DNA of 32,757 nt from an uncultured delta proteobacterium (GTDB lineage: Bacteria > Myxococcota_A > Polyangia > Polyangiales > Polyangiaceae). Positions 3,127 through 25,437 of this stretch are shown in pieces. The notes beneath the pieces were generated by a model that was not told the DNA's origin, did no database searches, and saw only the letters and a program-made list of their open reading frames with translations. The stretch lies in contig CAIQDA010000403.1 of NCBI GenBank assembly GCA_903870415.1, forward strand, positions 1-32,757, read 5' to 3'. Both the position numbers and the translations under genes were made by a program. Within the stretch, counting starts at the first letter, position 1. Each line of letters opens with the position of its first letter.

Positions 3127-3189
3127 CCCGCACGAAGAGCAAGGGCTAGGGCCAACTCCGTCGGTCGTTGGCTCGTTCAGCAGCGCCCG

Positions 3190-3370
3190 CCATGTGGAGC
3201 CGCGAGATTTTTCCCTCGCAGGGAAGCCGGTGAGAATCCGGCACGGCCCCCGCCACGGTAACCGAGGACGAACTTGGGCAAGCCACGAGGCACGTGCAGT
3301 CTACACAGACTTGCGGCGGCTTCGGAAGGGCCCAGGGGAGGATGATCCGGAAGTCCGGAGACCGGGCTCT
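3190..3370 (+). promoter_or_regulatory. Cobalamin (B12) riboswitch
   Basis: The conserved core is visible in order. GGGAAGCCGGTGAGAATCC begins at 3221, the CGGCCCCCGCCACGGTAA region ends at 3261, a GCAAGCCACGAGGC arm follows, and the B12 box (AAGTCCGGAGACCGGGCT, 3351-3368) closes the aptamer. These match the cobalamin riboswitch consensus. The outer limits are approximate because I could not fold the RNA. Downstream, a perfect six-pair hairpin (CCGCGC/GCGCGG, 3429-3446) sits nine bases before the AGGA ribosome site (3455-3458) of the lipoprotein gene at 3463. There is no U-tract, so control at translation initiation is more likely than termination. Confidence 0.93.
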
Positions 3371-3462
3371 ACACGCAGAAGCAACGCCCGCAGGATCCTT
3401 GGGAAAGGCCTGTTCGTTGCCCCCCATACCGCGCGGGTCGGCGCGGCATGCACCAGGACAAC

Positions 3463-4998
3463 ATGAATTCGAATATTCGAGCAACGGGCCCACTGTTGGC
3501 CCTCATCGCGTTGGCTTCGGCCATCGGCACACAAGCCTGCAGCGATTCCATTGATTCCGCGCGCCCGAACGTCGATGGCGGCGCAGACATGACCGATGCG
3601 CAATCCGTGCAAGATGCATCGATCAGCGCAGACAGCTCTTCGGTGGACGCTGGCACGATTGTTTGGGGCGATGCAGCCGCCCCCGATTCCGCGGCAGCAA
3701 CGGACGCCACCGTCGGCGATGGCGGAGCACAAGATGCCTCGCCCAACGACGGCGGACCGCTTGACGGCGCGACGAGGGACACGGGCTCCCCGAGCGACGG
3801 AGCCCTTGCGGACGCGGCGGCTACCACGTTCGGCAACGCCATTTGGGCGGGCACGGACTTCGGTTCCGCGGGGACCGAAATCACGGTGGTCGGCGTATCG
3901 CGCACAGGAAACGCTGCGACGCTTGCTGGCCGCCTTTCCATCGCGTCGAGCGACGTGGTGCTCTCCTCGTCGAACGGGCGCGCCTTTGCACTCGTGCGCG
4001 ACAAGGGCATCGTGAAGGTGCTCGGCGTGTCTCGCCCATGGATGGTCGCCCGCGACGTCGTCCTCACGCCCGACGCCGGCGCATACGCGGACAATCCCTA
4101 CGACGTGGCCTTCGTCCCGAGCGCGAACACGGCCTACGTTGCGCGCTACGCGGACAACGGCCTCGCGGTTTTCAACCCCGCCACAGGCGTCGTCGGAACC
4201 AGCGTCGACCTGTCGCCTGAAATGGCGGCGAGCGACCCCGACGGTCTCGTCGACGTGGCCCAACTTCTCGCGGACACGCCGAGTGGCAAGGTATTCGCCC
4301 TGCTTCAGCGCATCGATCAATTCGACTACAGCGGCGCGTGCCTCGCGGCGAAGCCTCTCATCGTCGCGGTCGATCCCGCTTCGGGGCAGCTCACCGGCGT
4401 CGTCACCGGGACGCAGTCGCACATCGAACTGCAGGGCGCGAACCCGCAGCAAATGGTCTTGAGCCCGCAGACGAGAAAACTCTACGTCGTGAGCGTGGGC
4501 TGCACCGCCGGCGACGCCTCGACCACCTTCTCGCGCCGCGGCATCGAAGAGGTCGACCTCGCCACGGGCAACGTGCGCTGGCTGGTTCAAGAAGACGGCA
4601 GCGAACGCCTCGGAGCGCTCTTGTCGTGGAACGGCCATGAGGGTTACGCACGCCAGGGAAATATGTGGTTTCCATGGAGCGCGACCAATTCAACGCTCGG
4701 CTCACCATCGTCAGCGTTCGCGGCAATCGCCCCGATGATGGTCGCGCCCGGGAGCCTCGTGAACCTGGCCACACCGAGTACGGGTGACGGCGGCACGACG
4801 TGGTCCGTCGAGTTCACGGCACCTTCCGTCGTGCGCACGGCCGTCTTCGGCTCGCCTTGGCTCAACGTGAACCCGGACCCAACCTACGGCGTCGGCGGCG
4901 TGTTCGTCTCTGACCTCAGCAATCCGCCCGTCGCATCCGTTCGTGCCCCGGCCTTCTCGCCCGCAGCCCTTCGTCGTCACGCCCCAAGCGCTCGCTGA
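3463..4998 (+). CDS. B12-regulated beta-propeller lipoprotein, candidate surface cobalamin-binding protein
   Basis: The ATG at 3463 has AGGA four bases upstream and is preferred to the ATG at 3448; the product is 511 residues. A hydrophobic signal ends at Cys26 (sequence GTQAC, an imperfect lipobox). A linker of about 85 residues rich in Asp, Gly, Ala and Ser follows. From about residue 120 the protein has repeated strands of the YncE/propeller type: NPYDVAFVPSANTAYVARY, LAVFNPATG, IVAVDPASGQL, MVLSPQTRKLYVVSVG, IEEVDLATGNVRW. The gene sits alone between a cobalamin riboswitch and a terminator eight bases after its stop, so B12 controls this one product. Bacteroides BtuG is also a propeller lipoprotein that binds B12 at the surface; the analogy is inferred from fold and regulation. 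No TonB receptor lies next to it here. Confidence 0.85.
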   Translation: MNSNIRATGPLLALIALASAIGTQACSDSIDSARPNVDGGADMTDAQSVQDASISADSSSVDAGTIVWGDAAAPDSAAATDATVGDGGAQDASPNDGGPLDGATRDTGSPSDGALADAAATTFGNAIWAGTDFGSAGTEITVVGVSRTGNAATLAGRLSIASSDVVLSSSNGRAFALVRDKGIVKVLGVSRPWMVARDVVLTPDAGAYADNPYDVAFVPSANTAYVARYADNGLAVFNPATGVVGTSVDLSPEMAASDPDGLVDVAQLLADTPSGKVFALLQRIDQFDYSGACLAAKPLIVAVDPASGQLTGVVTGTQSHIELQGANPQQMVLSPQTRKLYVVSVGCTAGDASTTFSRRGIEEVDLATGNVRWLVQEDGSERLGALLSWNGHEGYARQGNMWFPWSATNSTLGSPSSAFAAIAPMMVAPGSLVNLATPSTGDGGTTWSVEFTAPSVVRTAVFGSPWLNVNPDPTYGVGGVFVSDLSNPPVASVRAPAFSPAALRRHAPSAR

Positions 4999-5005
4999 AT
5001 ACACG

Positions 5006-5044
5006 CCGGGGAAGCGCTTTCGCCGAGCGTTTCCCCGGTTTTTT
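5006..5044 (+). terminator. Strong intrinsic terminator
   Basis: A 13-pair stem (CCGGGGAAGCGCT against AGCGTTTCCCCGG, one G-U pair) with a seven-base loop is followed by six T. It starts eight bases after the stop of the riboswitch-controlled lipoprotein gene, making that unit monocistronic. Confidence 0.92.
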
Positions 5045-19638: not shown

Positions 19639-19752
19639 CGCGAACCTTGAGGGAATGCGCTGGTATTCAGACTCCTTCGACGCATGTCGCGCGTTGCCTG
19701 TGGCTCCGAACGAGCAGCTTCGAGGTCCGGCGTTCTTTGCTACCGCGTCCCC

Positions 19753-20343
19753 ATGGCGCTCGTTCCGGTGTTCCTGCGTGCGGAGGGTGCGTGCATCGTC
19801 GTCGTTGGCGCCGGGCCCATTGGCACCCGAAAGGCCTTGGAGTGGGCCGATGCGGGCGCATGCGTTTTCGTCGTCGCGCCTGAAGCGACCGCGGAGCTGA
19901 AGTCCGCCGCTCAGGAAAAACGCGTCGCGTATCGTGCGAAAGCGTTCGAGGCCTCCGACCTCGATGGCGCGTTCTTCGTTGTCGCCGCCACAAACTCGAC
20001 CGAGGTGAATGCAGCGGTCGCCGAGGCCGCGAAGGCGCGTGGACTATTCGTCAACGCCATCGACGACTTGCCGAACGCCACGGCGTACGCCGCATCGACG
20101 ATTCGCCGCGCGCCCTTCACCATCGCCATTCAATCAGGGGCCGAGGTCCCTGCCCTCACGCGTCTCTTGCGCGAGGTGCTTGAGAGCGTATTGCCCGCGG
20201 ACACGTGGATTTCCAAGGCTCGCGAACTTCGACGGCGCTGGAAAGCGGAAGGGACGCCGATGGACGCGCGCTTTCCTGAACTGCTCGCAACGCTAGGCCG
20301 CGAGGCGCGCGAGGCGTCGACGAAGCCCCGCGAAGAAGGCTGA
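19753..20343 (+). CDS. Precorrin-2 dehydrogenase (NAD-dependent; siroheme synthesis)
   Basis: The enzyme oxidises precorrin-2 to sirohydrochlorin, and some members also insert iron. The start is the ATG at 19753 (196 residues); an upstream in-frame ATG at 19684 adds only unconserved sequence. The product matches the N-terminal half of CysG and Met8/SirC: VPVFLRAEGACIVVVGAGPIGTRKA is the Rossmann loop with the usual neighbouring residues. FFVVAATNSTEVN, FVNAIDDLPNATAYAAS and FTIAIQSGAEVPALTRLLRE follow, in the family order. The 3' end overlaps the convergent cobA by 51 bp. In E. coli the two activities are fused in CysG; here they are separate genes. Its product feeds the siroheme of the sulfite reductase nearby. 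Confidence 0.9.
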   Translation: MALVPVFLRAEGACIVVVGAGPIGTRKALEWADAGACVFVVAPEATAELKSAAQEKRVAYRAKAFEASDLDGAFFVVAATNSTEVNAAVAEAAKARGLFVNAIDDLPNATAYAASTIRRAPFTIAIQSGAEVPALTRLLREVLESVLPADTWISKARELRRRWKAEGTPMDARFPELLATLGREAREASTKPREEG

Positions 20344-21216
20344 GCGCCGTTCGACGGACGTGGCCTCGACAGGTTCGGCGCGCCGCAGAACCGCGATGCG
20401 CGCATGCACGTCGACCACATGCCCCACCACGACGAGCGCGGGCGCCTCTAGCTTCGCTTCGGTGACGAGTTCGGGAAGCGTCGCGATGGTTCCAATGACC
20501 TGCATTTCATCAGGCGTCGTCGCTTTGCTGATCCCCATGGCCGGCGTCGCGTTCGACCAACCCGCACGCACGAGCGCGTCACGCAATTGAGGGAGCGTTC
20601 CAAGCCCCATGTAGAATACAAGGGTACCTTCTTTGGGCAGATCCGCAATCTGCCGCTCGAAGCGCGCAAGGTCCGGCGAGCCATCGGACTTCGGCACGAG
20701 GTGAGCCGTCACAAAGGTAACCGTCGACGCGACCAAGCGATGGGTCAACGGCAATGCAAGGCTCGCGGCAGCACCCAACGCCGCGCTGACCCCCGGAATG
20801 ATTTCGAAGGGAATTCCTGCCTCTGCGAGCACAAGCGACTCTTCGCCTACGCGCCCAAAGATGGACGGGTCGCCGCCCTTGAGCCGAACGACGCGCTTGC
20901 CCATACGCGCAGCCTCAACGACGCGCGGGTGCAGGTCGACCTCGTGATGCCGAACTCCGCCTCCGCGACGCCCAACGGCGATGCGCTCCGCGTCGACCGG
21001 TGCGAGCGACAAAATCGCTTCGGAGACAAGCTCGTCATACGCCACCACCTGCGCCTCCGACAGGGCGCGGACGGCCTTCAGCGTCAGCAGCTCCGGGTCG
21101 CCAGGGCCCGCACCAACGAGGGAAACGAAGCCCATTTTCGGCGCCTTCGCGCTCCAGGACTCGCCCTCGCCGCCCGTGCTCCAAGAGCCCTTCGCAGAAA
21201 ACTCGCCTCGGTCCAT
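20293..21216 (-). CDS. cobA: Uroporphyrinogen-III C-methyltransferase
   Basis: This SAM-dependent enzyme adds two methyl groups to uroporphyrinogen III to make precorrin-2, the first step to siroheme and cobalamin. The 307-residue product has the family landmarks: VSLVGAGPGDPELLTLKA, YDELVSEAIL, VVRLKGGDPSIFGRVGEE, IIPGVSAALGAAA, LPLTHR, TLVFYMGL and the C-terminal LVVVGHVVDVH. The ATG at 21216 has GAGGG four bases upstream. An ATG at 21135 would begin right at the conserved core but has a weaker site. It lies 69 bp downstream of the sulfite reductase gene, with a possible promoter of its own (TAATAT at 21231-21236). Context favours siroheme supply rather than B12 synthesis, since no later cob/cbi gene is present. 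Confidence 0.95.
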   Translation of the reverse strand: MDRGEFSAKGSWSTGGEGESWSAKAPKMGFVSLVGAGPGDPELLTLKAVRALSEAQVVAYDELVSEAILSLAPVDAERIAVGRRGGGVRHHEVDLHPRVVEAARMGKRVVRLKGGDPSIFGRVGEESLVLAEAGIPFEIIPGVSAALGAAASLALPLTHRLVASTVTFVTAHLVPKSDGSPDLARFERQIADLPKEGTLVFYMGLGTLPQLRDALVRAGWSNATPAMGISKATTPDEMQVIGTIATLPELVTEAKLEAPALVVVGHVVDVHARIAVLRRAEPVEATSVERRSAFFAGLRRRLARLAA

Positions 21217-21285
21217 GGAACCCTCACACGATATTACGGTTTCGTTATGACGACTTACTCGCGACTTGTTTACGTACGCCTTTTC

Positions 21286-23058
21286 CTACGCGGCGCACTC
21301 GGCTTCGCCTTCGGTGACGCTGAACGCCTCGCTCTGGCCAAGGTCGATGAAGTCACTCTCAAGGGCCGTCGTTTCGTCGATGTCGAACAGCTCCCCGATG
21401 GCCTTCTTGACGCCATCGATCGGTGTTCGTGCGAGGAAATCATCTAGCTTTTCGCCGCTGGTGCGCTCACGCTCCCACAGGCCCAAAATGCGATCGAGCG
21501 CCGCGGGAACGCGATGCGCGGGGACCTTTCCAACGAGGCGACCGAAGCGCGAACCGGCAAGCGTGCCTTGTGCGTCTGGGACCGAGCCACCGCCGACCGT
21601 GAGTTGGTAGAGGGGCAGCGCGCGACCCCCAATCTTTCGCATGCCGCCCTGAAAGCCGATGCTCGCGACGTGGTGCTGACCGCAACCGTTCGGGCAGCCG
21701 CTCACCTTGATGCTTGCGTCGTCGAAGCCTGTCGCCTCGCCGCGAGCGACGGCGTGACCCTGCAAATGCGCGTTCAATCGCTCCGCAAGGCCACGCGACG
21801 CCGTCACGGCCACGGCGCACGTATGGGCCCCCGCGCATGAGATCACATCGGCGAAGGTTCCCGCTCCGCTTTCACCGAGCGAGAGGTCATCGAGGGCCGC
21901 GTGCAACGCAGGAAGCGACGCGCCCGTGATGTGCCGCAGCACCAAGTTCTGATCGATGGTCGTGCGCACCGTGCCGTCGCTGAAGCGCTCCGCAATCGAG
22001 GCAAGCGCGCGGAGCTGCGACGGGTTCAGATCGCCAAGCCTCAACGTCACAAACGCTGCAAAAAGACCGGGTTGCTTCTGCACGACGGCGTTGGTTCGAC
22101 GCCATGCCGCGAACCCCGAACGAGGCTCGGGCGCGTCGAGATTCACGATCGCCCCGGCCACGACGGACTCTTGCGGCGCGTTCGCAGGGTCGAAGGCAAA
22201 GCGCGGCGCCCCCTCCTGCTTCACAAGCTCCCACTCGGCGAGCACGCGCTCTTTGAACGCGTCCCAGCCGATGCTCTTCACGAGCCACTTCATGCGCGCC
22301 TTTTGCTTGTTGTTGCGCTCGCCTTCGCGATGAAAGACGCGAACGATGGCATCGCTCAAACCGAGTATTTCTCCAGCCTCCACGAACTCGACGATGGGCT
22401 GCGCCGACCGAGGCAACGTGGAGGTGCCGCCCGCTGCAAGGACGCGAAAACCGCGCTTGCCGTTCTCGACGCGCGCGAAGAACGCGATGTCGTGAATGGG
22501 ACCTCGCATCGCGTCCCGCGTCGAACCTTCGAAGGCGATTTTGAATTTGCGCGGCAACGACGACGAAAGAGGGCCGCGAAGAAAGTGCCTCACGAGGCCG
22601 TCGGCAAACGGCGTCACGTCGAAGGGTTCGCTCGGGTCAACGCCCGCAAGCGGGTTCGAGGTCACGTTGCGCACGCTGTGGCCACAGGCCTCTCGCGTGG
22701 TGATTCCCGCCTCGGCGCACAAGGTCATGGCCTCCGGCGCCGTCGCGAGAGAGAGACCGTAGAACTGAAAGTTTTGGCGGGTCGTCACGTGCGCGCGACC
22801 GTTTGCGTAGGTCTCGGCGACTTGAGCGAGCGTGCGGAGTTGGTCTGCCGAAGCGCGCCCGAGAGGCAGCTTCACGCGGAGCATCTGCTGACCCACTTGG
22901 CGTTGGCCGTAGACCCCGTTGAGAAGACGAAAGCTGCGCCACTGATCGGGCGTGAGCTCGCCGCGCTCGTAGCGTTCGAGGGTTTCGACGAAGAGGTCGA
23001 CGTCACTTTGCGTGGCGAATTTCAGGTGTCCATCACCATGAGGCGTAAGGTCAGTCAT
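21286..23058 (-). CDS. cysI: Siroheme [4Fe-4S] sulfite reductase, ferredoxin-type
   Basis: It reduces sulfite to sulfide with six electrons. The 590-residue product has the duplicated nitrite/sulfite reductase fold. The N-terminal half has RVKLPLGRASADQL, HVTTRQNFQFYGL and the RNVTSNPLAG siroheme-binding stretch. The C-terminal half has the cluster cysteines as Cx5C (408, 414) and Cx3C (455, 459), with the GCPNGCGQHH motif. The family also contains ferredoxin-nitrite reductases; the cysD-cysN-cysH context makes sulfite the likely substrate. No flavoprotein subunit (CysJ) is present, so electrons probably come from ferredoxin. Its ATG overlaps the stop of cysN by four bases (ATGA), indicating translational coupling. 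Confidence 0.93.
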   Translation of the reverse strand: MTDLTPHGDGHLKFATQSDVDLFVETLERYERGELTPDQWRSFRLLNGVYGQRQVGQQMLRVKLPLGRASADQLRTLAQVAETYANGRAHVTTRQNFQFYGLSLATAPEAMTLCAEAGITTREACGHSVRNVTSNPLAGVDPSEPFDVTPFADGLVRHFLRGPLSSSLPRKFKIAFEGSTRDAMRGPIHDIAFFARVENGKRGFRVLAAGGTSTLPRSAQPIVEFVEAGEILGLSDAIVRVFHREGERNNKQKARMKWLVKSIGWDAFKERVLAEWELVKQEGAPRFAFDPANAPQESVVAGAIVNLDAPEPRSGFAAWRRTNAVVQKQPGLFAAFVTLRLGDLNPSQLRALASIAERFSDGTVRTTIDQNLVLRHITGASLPALHAALDDLSLGESGAGTFADVISCAGAHTCAVAVTASRGLAERLNAHLQGHAVARGEATGFDDASIKVSGCPNGCGQHHVASIGFQGGMRKIGGRALPLYQLTVGGGSVPDAQGTLAGSRFGRLVGKVPAHRVPAALDRILGLWERERTSGEKLDDFLARTPIDGVKKAIGELFDIDETTALESDFIDLGQSEAFSVTEGEAECAA

Positions 23059-24350
23059 GCGTCGTCTCCGGATTCGCTGCGAATGAGTCCTGCGGCCACG
23101 GTCTCGTGCGTGGCCTCGTCCACCAGAATGAAACTGCCCGTCGTGGCGCCGTCGTCGTAGGCGTCAAAAACAAGCGGCGCGCTCGTGCTGAGGCGTGCAA
23201 CCGCCAGGTCGTTGAGCTTGAGTTCCACGGCTCCCGGCCGAAGTGCGAGCGAATCGAGGTCCAAGATTCCGTCGATGGAATCGAGGCGTGCCTTGACGCT
23301 TTTCGTGTGATTCTTCAGCCAGAATCGCGCACCTGGCCGAGCGGCATGCGTGTCGAACCAGGCAAGGGTCGCCACGATTTTTCGACCCACGCGAGGCGCC
23401 GATCCCTCGTGCGTGAGAACGTCGCCGCGACTGACGTCAACATCGTCTGCAAGGCGCAGCGCCACACTCAGCGGAGCCGCAGCTTCACCAAGCTCTTCCG
23501 GATGCCGATCGATGCCGACGACCGTCGTGCTCTTGCCTGAGGGCCACGCCACAACACGGTCGCCCACCTTCACGGTCCCCTGCGCGATTTGCCCAGCATA
23601 CGCTCGGTAATCGTGATGTTCGTCGCTGCCTGGACGGATGACCCATTGCACCGGAAAACGGAATGCAAGCGACTCGGAGTTTGCCACCGGCGCGTCTTCG
23701 AGGAGCTCGAGCAGCGATGGCCCCGCGTACCAAGGCATCGCCGTCGATCGATCGACCACGTTGTCGCCCGAGAGCGCCGCGACAGGAACGATGGTGATCG
23801 CCGTCGATGGAAGCTTGTCGGAGAACGCGCGCAAGTCCGCTTCGACCTCTCGAAAACGCGCTTCGTCGTAGCCAACGAGATCCATCTTATTGACGCCGAA
23901 AACCACGTTTTTCACACCCATGAGGCGCGAGGCGAGTGCGTGCCTTCGCGTCTGTTCGGTGACCCCGTGACGCGCATCGACGATGAGCAACGCCACGTCG
24001 GCCGTGGACGCGCCGGTGATCATATTGCGTGTATACTGCACGTGTCCGGGTGTATCGGCGACGATGAAGCGACGCTTTGCCGTGCGGAAGTAGCGGTAGG
24101 CCACGTCGATGGTGATGCCCTGCTCGCGCTCGGCGCGAAGGCCATCGGTGAGCAGCGCAAGTTCGGTGCGCGAAAAGCCCCGGCGACGACTCGCCTCTTC
24201 GACGTGCTCGAGCTGATCATCGGCAATTTGCTTGGTATCGAGGAGCAGCCGCCCCACGAGCGTGGACTTGCCGTCGTCGACATTTCCCGAAACCGAGAAG
24301 CGAAGCGCCCGTCGTTCGAGGGGCGCGGAGGTCGATGCGTCGGTGCTCAT
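23055..24350 (-). CDS. cysN: Sulfate adenylyltransferase GTPase subunit CysN
   Basis: CysN hydrolyses GTP to drive adenylation of sulfate by CysD, forming APS. The 431-residue product is an EF-Tu-like GTPase. The P-loop is GNVDDGKST (22-30), followed by the switch region ERE/QGITIDVAYRYF, DTPGHVQYTRNM, the NKMD base-recognition motif, and two beta-barrel domains. It ends without an APS-kinase domain, so it is not a CysNC fusion. The start codon overlaps the cysD stop (TAATG) and its own stop overlaps the sulfite reductase start, so three genes are tightly coupled. Confidence 0.96.
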   Translation of the reverse strand: MSTDASTSAPLERRALRFSVSGNVDDGKSTLVGRLLLDTKQIADDQLEHVEEASRRRGFSRTELALLTDGLRAEREQGITIDVAYRYFRTAKRRFIVADTPGHVQYTRNMITGASTADVALLIVDARHGVTEQTRRHALASRLMGVKNVVFGVNKMDLVGYDEARFREVEADLRAFSDKLPSTAITIVPVAALSGDNVVDRSTAMPWYAGPSLLELLEDAPVANSESLAFRFPVQWVIRPGSDEHHDYRAYAGQIAQGTVKVGDRVVAWPSGKSTTVVGIDRHPEELGEAAAPLSVALRLADDVDVSRGDVLTHEGSAPRVGRKIVATLAWFDTHAARPGARFWLKNHTKSVKARLDSIDGILDLDSLALRPGAVELKLNDLAVARLSTSAPLVFDAYDDGATTGSFILVDEATHETVAAGLIRSESGDDA

Positions 24351-25366
24351 TAAAAGTATCCCTCTCGCTTGCGGTCTTCCATCGCGGCCTCGGTGGCCCG
24401 GTCGTCGGCGCGCGTCTGCCCGCGCTCGGTGATGCGCGACGTGGCGATTTCGCGAATCACGTCGTCGATGGCGAACGCGTCGGACTCGACCGCTCCGGTG
24501 CAGGTCATGTCACCGACGGTGCGGTAGCGGACCGTGCGCGTTTCGAGCGATTCGCCAGGCAGAAGCTGTGTGGAACCCGACGATGCGTAGAGCATGCCGT
24601 CGCGTCGAAACACCTCGCGCTCGTGGGCAAAGTAGATGTTCGGCAGCGCCAGGTTCTCGCGCCGGATGTAGGCCCAGACGTCGAGCTCGGTCCAGTTCGA
24701 GAGTGGGAACACGCGGAGGTGTTCGCCTCGCTGGACGAAGCCGTTGTAGAGCGCCCACGGTTCGGGTCTCTGATTCTTCGGGTCCCATTGTCCAAAGCTG
24801 TCGCGGAAACTGAAGATGCGTTCTTTGGCTCGCGCACGCTCTTCGTCGCGGCGCGCACCCCCAATTGCCGCGTCGAAACCGTTCGTTTCGATGACGTCGA
24901 GGAGCGCGACCGTTTGAAGGCGGTTGCGCGACGCACGCGGGCCGATCTCTTCGCGGGCGCGCCCTTGCTGAATCATGTCTTCGACGGAAGACACGATGAG
25001 GCGCTCGCCGAGCTCCGCGACCCGTGCGTCACGAAACGCGATGACTTCGGGGAAGTTGTGCCCGGTGTCCACGTGCACGAGCGGGAACGGAAAGCGCGCC
25101 GGACGAAACGCCTTCTCTGCGAGCCGAAGGAGGACGAGGCTGTCTTTGCCGCCGCTGAAAAGCAGCATGGGGCGCTCGCGCTCCGCCGCGACCTCGCGCA
25201 GAATGAAGATGGCCTCGGCTTCGAGGTCGTCTAGTGAGGCGACCTCTTGTGCGAGATTCGCGAAGTTTCCACAGACAATCTCACGGTCATTTCCGTTGCG
25301 CGTTTGCTGAACTTCATGCAAGGCCGAAGCGTTCGACTTCTTTCGAGACTCCGTTATCTCAGACAT
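24350..25366 (-). CDS. cysD: Sulfate adenylyltransferase catalytic subunit CysD
   Basis: CysD transfers AMP from ATP to sulfate. The 338-residue product has the PP-loop LFSGGKDSLVLL, HVDTGHNFPE, IGGARRDEERARAKER, WDPKNQRPE and VFPLSNWTELDVWAYI. It ends with the Lys/Arg-rich tail RKREGYF typical of CysD. Compared with E. coli CysD it has about 40 extra N-terminal residues without obvious conservation. The ATG at 25366 has no ribosome-binding sequence, and the likely -10 (TATAAC) ends six bases before it. Either the message is leaderless or the real start is an internal codon. It is first in the cysD-cysN-cysI run and divergent from cysH. Confidence 0.95.
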   Translation of the reverse strand: MSEITESRKKSNASALHEVQQTRNGNDREIVCGNFANLAQEVASLDDLEAEAIFILREVAAERERPMLLFSGGKDSLVLLRLAEKAFRPARFPFPLVHVDTGHNFPEVIAFRDARVAELGERLIVSSVEDMIQQGRAREEIGPRASRNRLQTVALLDVIETNGFDAAIGGARRDEERARAKERIFSFRDSFGQWDPKNQRPEPWALYNGFVQRGEHLRVFPLSNWTELDVWAYIRRENLALPNIYFAHEREVFRRDGMLYASSGSTQLLPGESLETRTVRYRTVGDMTCTGAVESDAFAIDDVIREIATSRITERGQTRADDRATEAAMEDRKREGYF

Positions 25367-25372
25367 GTTTCT

Positions 25373-25401
25373 GTTATAGTAGACCATGACGCTGTGCGCA
25401 A
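25373..25401. promoter_or_regulatory. Divergent cysD/cysH promoter with overlapping -10 elements
   Basis: On the minus strand TTGCGC (25396-25401) and TATAAC (25373-25378) are 17 bases apart and point to cysD. On the plus strand TATAGT (25375-25380) overlaps the same bases and points to cysH, with no good -35. Five of six -10 positions match consensus on each strand. The intergenic space is only 71 bp. Confidence 0.45.
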
Positions 25402-25437
25402 CGACCATGCGCACCAGGCCCCAACGAAAGTGATGTC

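Follow-up and report, generated by a model that had tools for sequence, protein, structure and literature searches.

A cobalamin riboswitch and the single BtuG-like propeller lipoprotein gene behind it in a member of the Polyangiaceae

What does a bacterium gain from placing a single lipoprotein gene under the control of its own cobalamin (vitamin B12) riboswitch? The question is raised by a locus in the genome of an uncultured delta proteobacterium of the family Polyangiaceae (assembly GCA_903870415.1). The window, which here means the whole analysed stretch of 32,757 nucleotides of contig CAIQDA010000403.1, contains one such riboswitch, followed by a gene whose product is predicted to be a lipid-anchored beta-propeller. 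The reading favored here, to which a probability of about 0.7 is given, is that this gene forms a B12-repressed single-gene unit for an outer-membrane, corrinoid-capturing lipoprotein of a BtuG-like superfamily, and that the captured corrinoid would be passed to the TonB receptor of another switched operon.

A one-gene unit behind a cobalamin riboswitch

The elements of the locus are as follows.

3181-3384, + strand: cobalamin riboswitch aptamer (RF00174; cmscan 85.9 bits, E 4.6e-20)
3385-3462, + strand: leader from aptamer to start codon, a candidate translational expression platform that includes an AGGA ribosome-binding site at 3455-3458
3463-4998, + strand: switch-controlled lipoprotein gene, 511 amino acids plus stop (open reading frame; homologues in 12 of 59 relatives)
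3463-3540, + strand: lipoprotein signal peptide up to the lipobox Cys26 (from sequence)
3541-3819, + strand: Asp/Ala/Gly-rich linker of variable length (from sequence; variable region in alignment A1, see below)
3820-4995, + strand: predicted beta-propeller domain, BtuG-like by fold search (AlphaFold2 and Foldseek)
5005-5043, + strand: intrinsic terminator (stem 5005-5039 with 15 pairs, 9 of them G-C, then a T run)

The B12 aptamer proposed in a first-pass annotation of this DNA is borne out by a covariance-model scan of the window, in which RF00174 matches over its full length (model positions 1-189 of 189) with a score of 85.9 bits compared to a gathering threshold of 31.5 bits. The annotation had the riboswitch in the right place but began it at 3190, nine bases inside the aptamer, which starts at 3181. 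This is the sole Rfam match within the window, and a whole-genome riboswitch search puts RF00174 at the same position. The lipoprotein gene starts with an ATG at 3463, 78 bases downstream of the aptamer, and has its stop at 4998; an alternative in-frame ATG is possible at 3448. The lipobox cysteine is residue 26, within the sequence GTQAC, and a lipobox-type cysteine is found in 17 of 17 members of the same protein family (family A) that have a complete N-terminus. The domain that follows the linker comprises approximately 390 residues. Searched alone, the window protein has no match in Pfam or NCBIfam, and its PDB matches are at chance level only.

Because a PurT-type ATP-grasp gene lies upstream and a gene encoding DnaJ and TerB domains lies downstream, the lipoprotein gene is the only gene between the switch and the terminator, so that the closed unit described earlier stands. 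Elsewhere in the window, at 19684-25414, a uroporphyrinogen methyltransferase-like (siroheme-type) gene, as read from sequence, lies beside sulfate-assimilation-like genes, and these genes more likely serve the synthesis of siroheme than that of B12.

Switch linkage and receptor-linked relatives

A protein search found family-A relatives in 12 of 59 related genomes. When a profile of 18 family-A members (A1) is run over 108 genomes of the taxonomic family, 41 genomes have strong places, 50 in all, with scores of about 190 bits or more; a further 38 weak places (below 100 bits) resemble generic propellers or fragments. Thirty of the 50 strong places sit 39-406 nt downstream of a riboswitch among the riboswitches listed, and direct Rfam scans around the other 20 reveal 6 further riboswitches. 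This means that RF00174 occurs within about 0.4 kb upstream of 36 of 50 close homologues, in 36 of the 41 genomes, compared to a rough chance expectation of about 1e-4 per gene that assumes a switch density and a genome size. Among the riboswitches listed, none is within 600 nt of any of the 38 weak places. Thirteen of the 50 close homologues are without a switch despite scanning of the surrounding DNA, namely six paralogues in genome G035, two copies in G021, second copies in G108 and G109, and single copies in G059, G087 and G089. The fourteenth place without a switch, in G002, is on a contig that begins inside the gene.

Several further arrangements were observed in these genomes. Four of the G035 paralogues are in tandem (L050:4943-10911, contig C133), and that contig has no cobalamin riboswitch. 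In the same genome, where the family-A copies are switchless, another YVTN-like lipoprotein is encoded behind a cobalamin riboswitch (L026:2156-3529, contig C697). Lone lipoproteins of a different-looking family, with the motif WGRHGGP, are encoded behind cobalamin riboswitches at L031:7049-8689 and L039:7140-8703, in genomes without strong family-A genes. Cobalamin riboswitches at L036, L040 and L041 lie near genes that read from sequence as class I ribonucleotide reductase-like, an arrangement that follows the usual logic of a B12-independent isoenzyme.

The linkage extends beyond the taxonomic family. Of 377 genomes of the phylum, 104 have an A1 match with E 1e-10 or lower. RF00174 was sought in 16 genomes outside the family, chosen by their best-scoring A1 matches, and 13 of them contain a homologue with a same-strand upstream RF00174. 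The switch is 114-346 nt upstream in eight (G054, G039, G413, G055, G336, G263, G427 and G041) and 1.3-2.4 kb upstream, one gene away, in five (G446, G343, G447, G258 and G130). In all five of the latter, a TonB receptor adjoins the propeller gene, with the Pfam barrel and plug checked in three, and a receptor likewise adjoins the homologue in G039, G057 and G107. The order is switch, receptor, propeller in G057 and switch, propeller, small lipoprotein, receptor in G107. Among the 16 genomes, no RF00174 was found upstream of the homologues of G309, G399 and G302; in G399 and G302 the propeller gene comes after a TonB receptor gene that extends as far as the contig edge. The receptors adjoining propeller genes score below the NCBIfam cut-off for BtuB.

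The genome to which the window belongs (4.69 Mb, 98.3% complete, 511 contigs) contains two cobalamin riboswitches. The earlier remark that no TonB receptor is adjacent holds for the window locus, but the second switch controls one. The annotation's suggestion to look for receptors under similar switches leads to an operon (contig C204) that encodes a 266-aa small lipoprotein, a 634-aa TonB receptor and a 420-aa propeller lipoprotein homologous to that of the window.

L003:2779-4038, - strand: second propeller lipoprotein of the same genome (family B)

Family B (set A3), which includes this 420-aa lipoprotein, is homologous to family A (hhalign E 1.4e-12, or 4.7e-12 when the smaller set A9 is used). 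For the distant homologues linked to receptors (A10), the E values are 1.4e-25 against family A and 2.8e-19 against family B. The former value comes from A9 against A10, which have no row in common, and is used because A1 and A8 (E 2.9e-43) share the row L052. Generic propellers of the same phylum match family A at 1.4e-5 and 2.8e-4 and family B at 0.006 and 0.13.

Of the 108 genomes of the taxonomic family, 67 have family B. Its places above 226 bits number 68, with 5 lower-scoring fragments dropped. A same-strand switch lies within 5.5 kb upstream in 27 of the 68 among the riboswitches listed, and a direct scan of 38 of the remaining 41 places adds 13, for a total of 40 of 68. Many of these switches are 2.1-2.8 kb away, which is about the length of a receptor gene, and a TonB receptor is directly upstream in 34 of 49 loci examined. 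In G021, the operon has further genes for a FecCD permease, an ABC ATPase and a protein of the periplasmic binding type; among their best NCBIfam matches, which stay below cut-offs, are BtuC and a corrinoid ATPase. A family-A gene with its own switch is convergent beside this operon.

At many loci, cobalamin-switch operons encode, next to a TonB receptor and a propeller lipoprotein, a small lipoprotein-like protein of approximately 250-270 aa (A4; L003:5939-6736 on C204 in the window's genome). It features the motifs DVVSLGxGG and, at the C-terminus, FDLDAIA, has no Pfam match and no PDB profile match, and is not a homologue of the propellers (probability 0.9% and 0.3% in hhalign). It is a candidate third component of the uptake system. 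An apparent 1095-aa receptor-propeller fusion (L024:6183-9470, contig C484 of G018) was rejected, since its middle part is read in the wrong frame, with the receptor sequence carrying on in a different one; it is therefore taken as two genes with a probable assembly indel.

Family-wide switch linkage and homology to receptor-linked lipoproteins therefore place the window gene in a BtuG-like, B12-switched superfamily that spans the phylum, as a member detached from the receptor genes. The first-pass annotation had suggested an independent or distantly related BtuG-like scavenger, which the switch, the predicted fold and the BtuG match support, but it had missed this wider superfamily and its receptor-linked members.

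Receptor linkage also bears on the alternative that survives best, in which the propeller lipoprotein is part of the B12 uptake regulon yet does not itself bind corrinoid: it would serve the TonB receptor as a structural lid or partner, or would bind cobalt or a corrinoid carrier. The linkage to receptors in relatives is firm, as this alternative would have it. The window's genome, like most relatives seen, nevertheless encodes the protein by itself and under a switch of its own, an arrangement that better suits a capture protein than a fixed subunit, and BtuG, the best fold match of the protein, binds B12 directly (PMC6143338). A role without corrinoid binding is consequently regarded as unlikely.

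The predicted propeller and its nearest structural relatives

The propeller fold that had been claimed for the lipoprotein is supported by structure prediction, and BtuG is the best match in a blind fold search. AlphaFold2 modeling of the window domain from 2 sequences (the window protein and one homologue) gives an all-beta model of low confidence (pLDDT 48.9, pTM 0.55). Foldseek comparison of this model with 350,542 PDB chains ranks BtuG2 first (E 5.6e-9), with BtuG1 also on top, and 15 of the first 17 rows are BtuG. A replicate model of a same-genus homologue (from L023), with the window protein as partner sequence, is better but still of low confidence (pLDDT 58.3, pTM 0.64), and here the first 16 of 16 rows are BtuG (5.0e-10 to 1.5e-8), followed by 1l0q, TolB and YncE. 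The BtuG rows represent several structures of few proteins, and sequence identity in the structural alignments with BtuG is only about 10-17%. BtuG is a seven-bladed propeller; the pLDDT values of these two models are too low for counting blades.

Other comparisons point to the propeller class more broadly. VIA-align of the window model places YncE first (3vh0_A, Z 17.9, rmsd 3.5, 248 aligned) and BtuG1 lower (8blw_B, Z 16.3, rmsd 4.1, 262 aligned), scores that separate neither from the other. The family-A profile matches YVTN/YncE propellers in the PDB, the best being 1l0q (E 1.1e-12), and BtuG chains at E 0.5-2.6 only. With receptor-linked members included, BtuG 8bn0 reaches E 0.0011 at rank 2 behind 1l0q, and in a second such profile BtuG 8p97_B is at rank 1 (E 0.0027), with at least 7 of 12 rows BtuG. 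The propeller class is thus supported by PDB profile matches, by Foldseek for both models and by VIA-align for the first.

These results frame a less probable alternative, in which the protein is a generic periplasmic propeller of the YncE/YVTN type whose role is unrelated (redox cofactor or stress) and which came under B12 regulation by happenstance. The first place of YncE in VIA-align and of the YVTN surface-layer protein 1l0q among the profile matches speaks for it. Against this, Foldseek twice ranks BtuG above all other propellers, family A matches the receptor-linked lipoproteins (1.4e-25) far more closely than it does generic propellers from that phylum, and the switch linkage extends to other families and classes. 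YncE and YVTN surface-layer propellers (3vgz, 1l0q) share the fold class, and YVTN-type repeats match the family profile, but they are weaker than BtuG in Foldseek, and we know of no link between them and a B12 switch.

The window gene shares with BtuG (Bacteroides BtuG1-3; PDB 8ptf, 8ptd, 8okv, 8bmx, 3dsm) a lipoprotein product, a propeller and B12-riboswitch control, and BtuG structures are the best Foldseek matches of both models. As with BtuG, a TonB receptor adjoins the gene in some relatives and at the second propeller lipoprotein of the same genome. It differs in having no DUF5074 match, in standing alone rather than beside btuB, and in belonging to another bacterial lineage. DUF5074 (PF16819), which we take to be the Pfam propeller family of BtuG, has no match in the window protein, the 18 family-A members or two receptor-linked members of family B. 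It scores above cut-off in 4 of 282 genomes of the phylum, none of them in the window's own family, and those of the matches that were read (L077-L081) are generic propellers or unrelated ORFs and were rejected as BtuG. The window protein is not classed as BtuG because the Pfam model is unmatched, no receptor adjoins it and binding is only predicted; as far as can be told, it is BtuG-like in regulation, anchoring and fold class.

BtuH and DUF4465 (BtuJ) are accessory B12-binding lipoproteins of switch-controlled loci. In the parts of the literature drawn on for the comparison with BtuG and DUF4465 (PMC6143338, PMC10404256, PMC13398666, PMC11287211), DUF4465 is reported in Myxococcota and described as a beta-jelly-roll, a fold that differs from the propeller of the window gene, and DUF5074 is named as a propeller neighbor in DUF4465 loci. 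The window protein has no DUF4465 match in Pfam.

Proposed control by the leader and proposed role in corrinoid uptake

An alignment of the window with a same-genus relative (L053) shows 263 of 301 aligned leader bases to be identical (87%), compared to 66% for the propeller coding DNA, 30 of 54 (56%) for the upstream flank and 29 of 58 (50%) for the downstream flank. No part of the locus is thus as well conserved as the RNA leader, which holds for the aptamer and the start-codon region alike. In the candidate expression-platform region (3385-3462), 67 of 79 alignment columns are identical in the same-genus relative. That the riboswitch is a relic, or acts elsewhere and precedes the gene by accident, is highly improbable, since only the homologues without a switch speak for it, and the conservation of the leader relative to its flanks and the linkage in 36 of 50 close homologues speak against it.

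In the predicted leader fold, GUUG pairs with CAAC directly after AGGA; the folding energy of the platform is no better than that of shuffled sequences (z -0.04). No terminator-like site was found between aptamer and start codon, which makes translational control likelier than transcriptional. With the folding energy of the platform ordinary, this mode of control is an inference. By analogy with its class, the riboswitch would be an OFF switch through which B12 represses the gene.

Of 12 genomes tested, 9, the window's among them, lack CbiC (PF02570, precorrin-8X methylmutase) and 3 have it, and the MetH activation domain is found in 12 of 12. Since the genome has the MetH domain and no CbiC, its B12 is probably scavenged; this is one marker, which fits a scavenger and is no proof of auxotrophy.

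In the favored reading of a B12-repressed capture lipoprotein, the riboswitch at low B12 would leave the message on, most likely at the level of translation, as expected from its class. The lipoprotein would then be exported and lipid-anchored at Cys26, the acidic linker would keep the propeller away from the membrane, and the propeller, presumably exposed at the surface, would trap corrinoid outside the cell in the manner of BtuG. The corrinoid would be handed to the TonB-dependent receptor from the genome's other B12-switched operon, a step suggested by operon linkage in relatives. High B12 would turn off both units, again as expected from the riboswitch class. The lone propeller may be read as a free trap that acts in trans.

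The 2018 and 2023 BtuG papers, in the portions drawn on, describe BtuG and lipoprotein-capped receptors in Bacteroidetes only, and the titles and abstract openings of the open-licence papers searched describe no such B12-switched propeller-lipoprotein system for Myxococcota. It is a tentative proposal, put at somewhat less than even odds, that this is a second, non-Bacteroidota lineage with lipoprotein-assisted B12 uptake on the same propeller design. Each genome would have two homologous propellers. One would be encoded with a TonB receptor, in the way that BtuG accompanies BtuB; the other, alone under its own riboswitch, would trap corrinoid at the surface as a free-standing protein and supply the receptor in trans. 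If so, such a trap would be useful to cells that lack B12 synthesis.

B12-switched propeller lipoproteins, often beside TonB receptors, span several families and classes of a phylum other than that of Bacteroides, which suggests that BtuG-style vitamin capture is not confined to Bacteroides. They constitute a candidate capture system for bacteria that are seemingly unable to make B12, and they supply many sequences in which B12-binding residues may be sought by conservation.
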